The notes under the pieces were generated by a model, which saw nothing but the letters and a program-made list of their open reading frames with translations, was not told the origin of the DNA and made no database searches. The position numbers were made by a program, and so were the translations under genes. From positions 1 through 64,000 of the forward strand of contig JAJECT010000001.1 in the NCBI GenBank assembly GCA_022821845.1: a stretch of DNA of 64,000 bases. Reading direction: 5' to 3'. The stretch is from Rhodothermales bacterium. GTDB taxonomy: Bacteria > Bacteroidota > Rhodothermia > Rhodothermales > VXPQ01. Within the stretch, counting starts at the first letter, position 1; every line of letters starts with the position of its first letter. Of the stretch, positions 17,501-24,394 are shown in pieces.

Positions 17501-18331
17501 ATGGGAAAAATAATTTCGATTGCGAACCAGAAAGGCGGCGTGGGCAAAACAACCACGGCCATCAATCTGGCGGCGTCGCTGGCGGCCATGGAGTATCCGA
17601 TCCTGCTCGTGGACATGGATCCCCAGGCAAACGCCAGTTCGGGAACCGGCGTACACGACGGAACGCGGGGACATTCCATCTACGAAGCGCTGATCGGCAA
17701 CGCCGAAATACGCTCCATCGTCCAGGAAACGAACATCGCTTCGCTGCATGTGGCGCCCAGCCACATCAACCTTGTGGGCGCGGAAATCGAAATAGCGGAC
17801 CTGCCCAGGCGGGAATACCGCCTCAAACAAGCCTTCGACGCCATCCGGCGGGACTATGCGTTCATCGTGATAGACTGCCCGCCGTCGCTCGGCTTGCTCA
17901 CGGTAAACGCGCTTACCGCCTCGGACTCCGTCGTCATCCCCTTGCAAACCGAATATTTCGCCCTCGAAGGGTTAGGGCAACTGCTGAATACGGTAAAAAT
18001 CGTCCAGCAGCGCCTGAACCAGGCCCTCGAAATAGAAGGCGTCCTGCTGACTATGTTCGACGCCCGGCTCCGCCTTGCGAACCAGGTCGTAAACGAAGTG
18101 CGGCAATATTTCGGCGACAAAGTGTTCAAGACCATCGTCCGACGCAACGTTCGGCTTTCGGAAGCGCCCGGTTTCGGGAAACCCGTGCTGCTCTACGATG
18201 CGATTTCCACCGGCGCGCGCAACTATATCGCCCTCGCTCGCGAAATCGTCGAGAACAATGCCGGGGCCGCGATGCAAGCAAACGGCGACGCGCCCCGGAC
18301 GCATACGCCGCCCGTCGAATACGCCCCGTAA
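17501..18331 (+). CDS. parA: Chromosome partitioning ATPase ParA (Soj)
   Basis: 276 residues. Deviant Walker A KGGVGKTTT (11-19) with the signature lysine, switch region DMDPQANASSG, Walker B-like FIVIDCPPSLGLLTVNAL and the C-terminal Soj pattern RRNVRLSEAPGFGKPVLLYD. It forms ATP-dependent dimers on the nucleoid and drives origin segregation with ParB. parB follows 24 bases downstream. The length and lack of an N-terminal DNA-binding domain mark it as chromosomal type Ib-like/Soj, not a plasmid type Ia ParA. Confidence 0.95.
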   Translation: MGKIISIANQKGGVGKTTTAINLAASLAAMEYPILLVDMDPQANASSGTGVHDGTRGHSIYEALIGNAEIRSIVQETNIASLHVAPSHINLVGAEIEIADLPRREYRLKQAFDAIRRDYAFIVIDCPPSLGLLTVNALTASDSVVIPLQTEYFALEGLGQLLNTVKIVQQRLNQALEIEGVLLTMFDARLRLANQVVNEVRQYFGDKVFKTIVRRNVRLSEAPGFGKPVLLYDAISTGARNYIALAREIVENNAGAAMQANGDAPRTHTPPVEYAP

Positions 18332-18355
18332 TTTTCACGTATCCCCTCTCTTGCC

Positions 18356-19255
18356 ATGGCGCCACGGAAAGAAGCGCTGGGACGCGGACTGAGCGCAATC
18401 CTCGAATCGAACGAAGAACCCCTTGCGTCCGCCCATTCGTCCAGACGAGCCAGCCAGATCAGCGAAATAGACCTGTCGCTCGTACAGCCCAATCCCATGC
18501 AACCCCGCAAGGATTTCGACGAAGAAACGCTCATGGAACTGGCGCACTCGATCAGGCAACTGGGGGTGATTCAGCCTGTCGCGGTGCGAGCGGGGGAGCG
18601 GGGGTACGAACTCATTTCCGGAGAGCGACGGCTGCGCGCGGCGCGGCTTGCGGGGCTCGAACGCATTCCCGCCTATGTTCGGGAGGCGGATGCGGACAGC
18701 ATGTTGCAAATGGCTATCGTCGAAAATGTCCAGCGCGAGAACCTCAACCCGATCGAAGAGGCGCTGGCCTACCGGCGCTTGATGGAAGAATGCGACATGA
18801 CCCACGAAGAAGTAGCCCGCAGCGTCGCCAAAAGCCGATCCGCCGTAACCAATATGCTGCGCTTGCTCCGGCTGCCCCCCATCGTGCAAACCGGCCTGCG
18901 CGACGGCGAAGTATCCGTTGGACACGCCCGCGTACTGATTGGCATAGCAGACGAGAAAACGCAAATCGCCCTCTTCGAAGCCATCAAGGCCAAAGGATTG
19001 TCCGTACGGGAAGTCGAGCGAAGGGTACGGGAAAATCGCGAGGCCAGAACGCCAAAAACCAAAAAACCGGCGCAAGGCGAGACCGCCCTGTCGAAGCGGG
19101 ACGCCCTGCAAGTGGAAAAATACGTGTCGCAACTTCGCAGCCGCCTTGGCACGCGGGTGGGCATCCGGCGTCAGGGCCATGGAGGACGTATCGAAATCGA
19201 GTACTATTCCGGCGAAGACCTGGAACGGCTGCTCGAATTGATCGCGGGGAAATAA
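18356..19255 (+). CDS. parB: Chromosome partitioning protein ParB (Spo0J)
   Basis: 299 residues. It opens with RKEALGRGLSAIL, the usual N-terminal motif contacting ParA, followed by the ParB CTPase/nuclease-fold domain (PNPMQPRKDFDEETLMELAHSI, GERRLRAARLAG, VENVQRENLNPIEEA), a helix-turn-helix (MTHEEVARSVAKSRSAVTNMLRLLRL) that would bind parS, and a C-terminal dimerisation domain. The cognate parS consensus was not found in this window. The DUF5683 gene starts 2 bases after the stop. Confidence 0.95.
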   Translation: MAPRKEALGRGLSAILESNEEPLASAHSSRRASQISEIDLSLVQPNPMQPRKDFDEETLMELAHSIRQLGVIQPVAVRAGERGYELISGERRLRAARLAGLERIPAYVREADADSMLQMAIVENVQRENLNPIEEALAYRRLMEECDMTHEEVARSVAKSRSAVTNMLRLLRLPPIVQTGLRDGEVSVGHARVLIGIADEKTQIALFEAIKAKGLSVREVERRVRENREARTPKTKKPAQGETALSKRDALQVEKYVSQLRSRLGTRVGIRRQGHGGRIEIEYYSGEDLERLLELIAGK

Positions 19256-22616: not shown

Positions 22617-22755
22617 CGGGATTGCAGGCTGATCGAAAGCGCTCGTCTCCAGCGAATGAAAACGCTTGGCGGCGGACGGGCGGCCCTGGCGTACGAAAAT
22701 GTCGAGGCGATACGGGAGCGGAACAGCGAAGCGCCGCAACGACCGCGCAGCGCGT

Positions 22756-22791
22756 CAAAACAAAAAACGCCGACTGCAAAAGCAATCGGCG
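22756..22791 (-). terminator. Minus-strand intrinsic terminator in the gene-free island
   Basis: Read on the minus strand: CGCCGATTGC, loop TTTT, GCAGTCGGCG (10 pairs, one G-T wobble), then TTTTTTGTTTTG. On the plus strand the arms are 22768-22777 and 22782-22791. No minus-strand gene ends here; the nearest upstream one stops almost 1 kb away with another hairpin in between. The signal implies an unannotated minus-strand RNA. Confidence 0.75.
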
Positions 22792-23400
22792 CTTCCTGCC
22801 TGGACATGCGGGGATAACCCCACAATTAAACTTGCGCCATTACGCTTGGCGAAATGCTATAGAACCCGGCGTCTATTGCATCCGGAATCCTTCCTGTCAG
22901 CGACGGGCCTCCCGGGATTTCTGCGCATCGCCTCAGCAATACGCCGAAACCGGAGTTCGGGAGGCCCTACTCCCGTTGGCGCCGCAGACCGGCCGAAACC
23001 GGCGACAACGCCAACGTAGCGGCATGTGCCTGGCGAACAGTGGCCTGATCGCCGAGCTGCGAGAACCGCATGGGCAAACGGTTCCAGCGCCACAGGCCTT
23101 TTGATTGCCTGCGCTTCCTGTATCCACACATTCTCCACAGCAAGCGTTCCGATCCCCTTGCTGCGCTTGCCCTCTCCAAGCAGGCATTGCGCGTACGCGC
23201 TACGCCATCGCTTCGTCAAGTTGCTTGCGCAGCGAAAACCGGATTCGCCAGCCGCTTCGTCGAACCTGTGCACACCCCTCGCCAGAGCGGGGGACGGACG
23301 GCAGACGCCTCATGCAGCCAGAGTATTCAGTCGCTTCAAGGAACAGCATCCGAAGACGCTGGAATCATAATAAGCGTCCGTTTACGTCAGGTCAAGGCCC

Positions 23401-23433
23401 CGACAGTATTTTATTTCACAATTTATTAACAAA
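23401..23433 (-). promoter_or_regulatory. Candidate minus-strand promoter in the gene-free island
   Basis: On the minus strand TTTG (23430-23433) is followed after 21 bases by TACTGTCG (23401-23408), an imperfect match to the Bacteroidota TTTG/TAnnTTTG promoter. The spacer is strikingly A/T-rich. Transcription would run toward the terminator at 22756. Confidence 0.25.
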
Positions 23434-23526
23434 CTGTGCACGGCTTGCAAAAAAGATGTGGATAGAGAAGCCGCAAGCCATACGTCGCGCCGAACCGCTT
23501 TGCTTCTGGCGCCCTGCGCAAACCGA

Positions 23527-23557
23527 AAAGCCCGACCTGCCGTACAGGCCGGGCTTT
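23527..23557 (-). terminator. Hairpin downstream of rhomboid gene
   Basis: AAAGCCCGACCTG (23527-23539) pairs with CAGGCCGGGCTTT (23545-23557), one mismatch, loop CCGTA. On the minus strand it is followed by a short T-rich run (TTTTCGGTTT), so it could end the purQ-rhomboid transcript about 200 bases past the rhomboid stop. Confidence 0.5.
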
Positions 23558-23682
23558 CGACGCCCACGAAGATGCGACCGATGCCTCGCAATCCATAAAA
23601 CCGGAAAAAACGGCGGATGCGAGCGAGGCCTCCAGCGCATGAGGTGAAGGCAAAATGCGAAATAATCGGAAATAAAGCAAGC

Positions 23683-23750
23683 AATAACGGAATTTTTCTG
23701 TGGCGCAGGAAAAATAATTTCCCAAAATATATAAGAAATAACGGAATTTT
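23683..23750. repeat. Direct repeat AATAACGGAATTTT, two copies
   Basis: The 14-mer AATAACGGAATTTT occurs at 23683-23696 and 23737-23750, 54 bases apart, in an A/T-rich patch just 3' of the rhomboid gene. A third imperfect form (AATAATCGGAAATA) lies at about 23661. Role unknown; possible protein-binding sites or remnants of an insertion. Confidence 0.45.
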
Positions 23751-23761
23751 GACAGAAGACG

Positions 23762-24394
23762 CTATATTCCGAGTCGGCCCAGTTCCTGCAGGAATATCTC
23801 CACCGATTGGGGCTCCAGCAACATCGTGAGCATCAGTCCGCCCAGCGCGCCGCCCAAATGCGCCTCGTGCGCAATGCCGCCCCCCGCCCCGCTGCGGGAA
23901 CGCTGCATCGCATACATCGAAACCGCCACATAGCCCACGGCGAAAAGCGCCGCCGGAACGCCTATCGGCACGAAAGCAATGTAAATGGGCTGAAGCGGGG
24001 CGAACAGGCAATACCCGAACAACACCCCGCTGATCGCCCCGGACGCCCCGACCGACGCATACGTCGAAGAATGTCTGTGCAAGGCAAGGGAAAACCCGTT
24101 CGCCGCCAATTCGGAGCCGAAGTACAACGCCAGAAAAGAGCCGGAGCCCAATACGCTTTCCATCGGCGGGCCGAAGAAATAGAGCGTAATCATATTGAAC
24201 AACAGGTGCCCGGCGCCCACATGCACGAATCCCGCCGTAATGAACCCGCTATATTGCCCATGGCGCAGCGCCAGATACGGTTTGAACGCCAGGCGATCCA
24301 GAAGCGAACGATCGAATAGCAGGGCATAGCCGCTCGTCAGGAGCGTGGCCAACAGCAGGGAAAACGTAACCGGGGACGCGGAGAAAGAAAGCAT
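23762..24394 (-). CDS. Rhomboid family intramembrane serine protease
   Basis: 210 residues, about six membrane spans. Features in order: FITAGFVHVGAGHLLFNMITLYFFG (the HxxxN-type segment that stabilises the oxyanion), catalytic serine in VGASGAISGVLFGY, and catalytic histidine in AHEAHLGGALGGLML. These make a Ser-His dyad typical of active rhomboids, which cut single-span substrates within the membrane. The start is 7 bases after the purQ stop on the same strand, so the two are probably co-transcribed, though no functional link is evident. Confidence 0.9.
   Translation of the reverse strand: MLSFSASPVTFSLLLATLLTSGYALLFDRSLLDRLAFKPYLALRHGQYSGFITAGFVHVGAGHLLFNMITLYFFGPPMESVLGSGSFLALYFGSELAANGFSLALHRHSSTYASVGASGAISGVLFGYCLFAPLQPIYIAFVPIGVPAALFAVGYVAVSMYAMQRSRSGAGGGIAHEAHLGGALGGLMLTMLLEPQSVEIFLQELGRLGI

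Follow-up and report, generated by a model that had tools for sequence, protein, structure and literature searches.

We analysed a window of 64,000 nucleotides from a Rhodothermales bacterium, in which two neighbouring predicted non-coding RNAs lie between positions 22762 and 23645 (all positions are those of the window, and all RNA features are on its minus strand). The larger (22762..23360, about 600 nt) has a start inferred from its promoter and an end inferred from its terminator. The smaller (23526..23645, about 120 nt, start likewise inferred) has its own predicted promoter. The initial annotation had proposed a minus-strand non-coding RNA of about 640 bases in this region. Such an RNA is supported, with an extent closer to 23360-22762, as the interval reported earlier takes in the promoter. 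The earlier reading was also incomplete, the large RNA being one half of a two-RNA system.

The promoter of the large RNA is of the sigma70 type (TTGACC-17-TATTAT, 23367..23395); it was assigned from the sequence and has a layout common to most of 56 genomes. The A/T-rich, promoter-like patch previously remarked on at 23401 lies directly upstream of it. The transcript begins with a 5’ hairpin (GCGTC-TTCG-GATGC, 23346..23359), which shows compensatory changes in alignment A2. The conserved core GTTCCTTGAAGCGACTGAATACTCTGGCTGCATGAGG (23308..23344) follows, comprising the target of the small RNA and the 5’ strands of three helices, P1, P2 and P3. Further inside are hairpin C (GAACCG-uuuGCCCAug-CGGUUC, 23063..23084), whose loop meets the small RNA, and the GTTGGCG/CGCCAAC inverted repeat, already pointed out and indeed present as a hairpin (22974..23016). 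The 3’ domain (22890..22972) pairs back to the core. It comprises P3’ (GAGTAGG, at 22972), followed by a hairpin (GGGCCTCCCG...CGGGAGGCCC), P2’ (GTCGCTGA, 22904-22897) and P1’ (AGGAAG, 22895-22890). The intrinsic terminator (22762..22792) has the stem GCGCCGATTGC-TTTT-GCAGTCGGCG followed by TTTTTT; the terminator announced at 22756-22791 is thus an exact stem-loop with a T run at 22792-22762. As had been said, it lies about 1 kb past the nearest minus-strand gene, a rhomboid (Pfam E 9e-29) that ends at 23762. This rhomboid protease gene (23762-24394) precedes the small RNA, as it also does, judged by eye, in many relatives; in G002 the two are not immediate neighbours.

The small RNA carries three segments complementary to the large RNA: arm A (CCTCATGC, 23637..23644) to core positions 23315-23308, arm B (ATCGGTCGC, 23574..23582) to core positions 23334-23326, and segment C (GTGGGCG, 23561..23567) to the loop of hairpin C. 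Its terminator (23526..23557) is the hairpin at 23527 of the initial annotation, which was right about the structure and missed its role in ending a partner RNA.

Conservation and distribution of the two transcription units

When 60 relatives were searched with the DNA of the locus, we found full-length relatives of the large RNA in five congeners (97 to 72% identity) and its 40-base core in twelve genomes of other families. R1, a covariance model of the 5’ hairpin and the core, gave one strong match per genome (E<1e-11) in 56 of the 114 Rhodothermales genomes, in 11 families, and no genome had a second full-core target. The carriers include a cultured species, Roseithermus sacchariphilus. Families f3, f4, f11 and f15 and genus g14 had only chance-level matches to R1, even with laxer filters, and there was no convincing match outside the Rhodothermales in a 395-genome sample of the phylum. 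Pattern matches in Motiliproteus, a “Mycobacterium” bin and a Verrucomicrobiaceae bin were set aside as chance hits. Given the full-length relatives in five congeners and the presence of the 5’ core throughout the order, the large RNA is not due to chance.

The promoter and the terminator of the large RNA are conserved among carriers, and in most of them the core stands directly 3’ of a TTGAC-17-TATAAT-like promoter and the 5’ hairpin, whose pairs change together across relatives. Both ends are kept; the body varies in length and sequence, and the RNA spans about 540-930 nt in relatives (a terminator lies that far downstream in most). The minus strand of 22750-23450 folds with z = -9.2 relative to dinucleotide shuffles, the plus strand with z = -3.0. 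The remark that nothing inside looks coding holds: indels within the genus are not in threes, and no reading frame is kept outside the core, within which the DNA itself is near-identical. The locus is not a degraded protein gene. Alignment with related genomes, suggested at the outset as a check, revealed compensatory changes. A search of Rfam 15, suggested likewise, gave no family at gathering score in the window, and the best matches in 15 related loci were below gathering scores. The sub-threshold matches (sar, Qrr, snoR77Y, Thr_leader and others) had chance-level E-values and were discarded, as were RNase P RNA and tmRNA, whose copies in this genome are elsewhere (250.8 and 182.3 bits, contigs C28 and C45). 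The promoter and terminator, the compensatory structure, the single copy in 56 genomes, the lack of a frame and the lack of an Rfam match together strongly support a minus-strand non-coding RNA.

The small RNA is on the same strand as the large one and upstream of it, about 210-580 nt from the core in most genomes. It is about 100-120 nt long in carriers. In relatives, its promoter reads TTGc-17-TAtcTT and the transcript starts with arm A (CCUCAUGC), followed by a variable hairpin, arm B (CUCAGUCGC), segment C (AUGGGCAC) and the terminator. R2, a model of the small RNA built on alignment A6, had strong matches in carriers; its matches in non-carrier genomes, among those opened, were terminator hairpins only. 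All 56 carriers have the small RNA: 52, plus two in which it lies beyond an insert of about 2 kb, plus two more in which it was read from another contig or a longer stretch. In the two genomes with the insert, the congeners G001 and G005, both RNAs are intact on either side of it, so they are separate units, and comparison across genomes shows two transcription units. The insert itself, an element of about 2 kb, occupies about 2.9 to 5.1 kb of L095 and L117. In one genome (G051, L098) segment C of the small RNA is apparently altered, and the sequence immediately 5’ of the large-RNA core looks duplicated or rearranged.

Sequence boxes upstream of the two promoters

Upstream of the large-RNA promoter there are elements that resemble DnaA boxes (23396..23465). 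They are weak here and form phased TGTGNAW arrays in relatives, at -16, -27, -38 and -50, upstream of the -35 box and 11-12 bp apart. Of the 56 loci, 38 have at least two phased TGTGNAW elements, compared with a single such array in the 716 kb of background that was sampled, and similar boxes occur near dnaA. The likeness to DnaA boxes makes DnaA a candidate regulator; direct repeats of 11 bp would also suit a regulator of the OmpR type. Several genomes encode two Bac_DnaA-domain genes (G000:C25:77955-78440 and C34:46148-46630; also G002, G004 and G033), and clusters of DnaA boxes adjoin the second of these genes.

The small-RNA promoter has a different box, CCGTTATTG, with one copy at about -46 (23682..23690) and a second, CCGTTATTT (8 of 9 positions), 54 bp from it (23736..23744). 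Among relatives, at least one copy stands at about -48 in 49 of 52 cases, and a second copy lies 54, 64, 74 or 85 bp further, i.e., in helical-turn steps. The exact CCGTTATTG pair is seen at the locus in carriers; genomes of the non-carrier families lack it altogether. A wider CCGTTATTG regulon was rejected, with four pairs outside the locus and four in a reversed-pattern control. One pair, 55 bp apart, is upstream of a parC/gyrA-like gene (G000:C2:30045-30108, L231); such pairs are at chance level over the order, and this one is suggestive. The -10 region of the small RNA in the window (23646-23660) looks weak, GCATTTTG compared with CTATTATG in the closest relative, G001, and small-RNA activity may be reduced in this genome. 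The phased DnaA-like repeats and the paired CCGTTATTG boxes provide a route to the physiology of the RNA pair.

Pairing within and between the two RNAs

RNAalifold, given 13 f5 sequences and no other input, paired the core of the large RNA with its 3’ end. P1 (GUUCCU:AGGAAC), P2 (GACGCGA:UCGCGUC) and P3 were found near the terminator in about 46 genomes, a count that leans towards helices as P1’ and P2’ were sought partly by complementarity. Hairpin C, whose stem has both-side changes at eight of its nine pairs, and the RNAalifold result lean less that way. The closing helices show compensatory changes, such as GACGAGA:UCUUGUU in G025. The covariation score of the cis helix set is 0.364, against 0.234 when shuffled (0 of 500 shuffles as high), with relatedness left in this statistic. 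Comparison thus shows helices that close the large RNA.

Comparison also shows three contacts between the RNAs, arms A and B on the core and segment C on a loop. The loop came out of a k-mer count in large-RNA bodies, as GUGCCCAU, which is complementary to segment C, and the contact is about 250 nt inside the large RNA. Over 31 distinct concatenated sequences, 96.0% of the 744 cells of the trans contacts are paired, against 30-46% in slid controls. Both-side changes occur at six trans pairs, compared with a shuffled mean of 1.1 (0 of 500 shuffles), again with relatedness left in. Random re-pairing of partners among 52 genomes never reached the real value in 2000 trials, and for contact C alone did so in 2 of 5000; relatedness is still present in both controls. 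Compensatory changes include GAGC/GCUC in G013 and G025, GGAC/GUCC in G074, CUCCGUCGC/GCGAUGGAG in G016, and CUUCAUGC with GCAUGAAG in f14 genomes. A few loop partners (G013, G074) were found partly via complementarity, which biases the counts, and the contact sequences change little, so independent compensatory events are few. Contact C is absent in at least six genomes (f10, f13).

When cofolded, the small RNA and the core are about 17-30 kcal/mol more stable than when folded separately, and arms A and B lie on the core in a three-way junction whose third helix is the small RNA’s own hairpin. In RNAduplex, pairing of the small RNA with shuffled cores was only modestly weaker in some genomes (z of -1.0 here and -5.3 in G033). 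Arm B covers core bases that are also used by P2 and P3. The bound and the closed forms would therefore be mutually exclusive, at least partly, which makes the small RNA most likely an antisense partner, and it probably switches the fold of the large RNA. Since the compensatory changes define the binding sites down to single bases, the mechanism is testable with designed swaps in vitro.

Proposed mechanism, rival explanations and known systems

We favour, with a probability of about 0.6, a reading in which the locus encodes a pair of non-coding RNAs, the small one being an antisense partner that would remodel the large one or keep it open. The large RNA would close on itself when its conserved 5’ core pairs with the 3’ end through P1, P2 and P3. 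The small RNA, made separately from its own upstream promoter, would bind the same core in trans with two arms and also touch the hairpin loop further inside. In the simplest mechanism, it would bind the 5’ end of the nascent large RNA while the 3’ end is still to be made, and could in this way decide the fold. The closed and bound folds would then compete, the small RNA would control the large one by setting how much of it is active, and each promoter would have its own regulator: for the large RNA DnaA or a protein like it, for the small one a protein at CCGTTATTG. If the large-RNA promoter does answer to DnaA, a non-coding RNA would be tied to the replication cycle. We can go further only tentatively, to a possible, if doubtful, hetero-RNA machine of the order, with obligate partners, three trans contacts and a large RNA under DnaA-type control, whose making or folding would follow the replication cycle.

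The small RNA might instead be no regulator, but the permanent subunit of a stable two-subunit ribozyme or scaffold. Such a complex would fit the strict co-occurrence of the RNAs (56 of 56 genomes), the spread of three contacts over the large RNA and the conservation of the contact sequences beyond the needs of pairing. We nevertheless regard it as unlikely, since two promoters, each with boxes of its own kind, suggest that the RNAs are controlled separately, arm B shares bases with P2 and P3, and outside the contacts we found no conserved candidate for an active site. It is quite improbable that the small RNA regulates mRNAs via its arms and that the large RNA is a sponge that titrates it. 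The arms are very conserved, like the seeds of sRNAs, and arm A starts the small RNA, but a target sequence alone would suffice for a sponge, whereas the large RNA combines length and structure with a conserved closure of its own. In addition, a search that covered full-core targets found no other in any genome.

Two adjacent RNAs, complementary over about 20-30 bp at the 5’ end of the longer RNA, are reminiscent of type I toxin-antitoxin systems, and tisB/istR is an RNA pair of this kind. The large RNA would then be an mRNA that encodes a small toxin, with the small RNA as the antitoxin, a very improbable arrangement here, where no reading frame is conserved outside the core, the body varies widely in length and sequence, indels are not in threes within the genus and there is one copy per genome. 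Finally, the inverted motifs and the DnaA-box-like repeats could act as DNA, in a replication origin or another site. The phased TGTGNAW boxes upstream of the large-RNA promoter, rare in the 716 kb background, are in favour of such a site, although DnaA binding at this promoter would fit our preferred antisense mechanism too. Variable hairpin stems, terminators and trans compensatory changes are features of RNA, which renders a DNA site extremely improbable. An origin, suggested by these repeats and by parAB at 17.5-19.3 kb, was ruled out by GC skew and dnaA positions: the skew switches near dnaA, 0.5-0.7 Mb from the locus in G004 and G012, there is no skew change in the window, and G002 agrees. 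The parA and parB genes are at 17501-19255, though there is no skew switch in the window and dnaA is on other contigs.

The RNA pair has several counterparts among known RNAs. Among the papers searched, none was on non-coding RNA in Rhodothermales. Like 6S RNA (RF00013), the large RNA is a structured non-coding RNA with its own promoter, but 6S RNA is about 180 nt long and forms one hairpin with an open bubble. We found no covariance-model match to 6S RNA in G000, G012 or G047, and rejected this identity for the locus, as sequence and structure do not match. As in tisB/istR-1, the two RNAs are neighbours with a short stretch of trans complementarity close to the 5’ end of the longer RNA; the difference is that our locus has no toxin reading frame and its large RNA is a closed structured RNA. 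RNA I and RNA II of ColE1 are an antisense pair that controls plasmid copy number. In both cases a small antisense RNA meets the 5’ part and the loops of a long structured RNA, alternative folds matter, and, as in antisense copy control, we found trans complementarity with compensatory changes. In copy control, however, the antisense RNA is on the opposite strand of its target, at the origin, whereas our small RNA is upstream on the same strand, on a chromosome and with the origin elsewhere. It would also act as a bipartite clamp instead of by full overlap, and a primer role is not part of the evidence here.

OLE, ROOL and GOLLD are large ornate bacterial RNAs that form complexes of identical copies (PMC12286853). 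The large RNA resembles them in being non-coding, several hundred nucleotides long and highly structured, with intermolecular contacts backed by covariation and a function un- or incompletely known. It differs in sequence, does not match the sequence and structure models of these families or any other in Rfam, is restricted to Rhodothermales, and its partner is a different, small RNA. The locus would be a case of two non-coding RNAs whose mutual pairing bacteria have conserved across an entire order. The large structured RNAs known from bacteria are few, most of them functionally unassigned, and this one comes with a genetically separate RNA partner.
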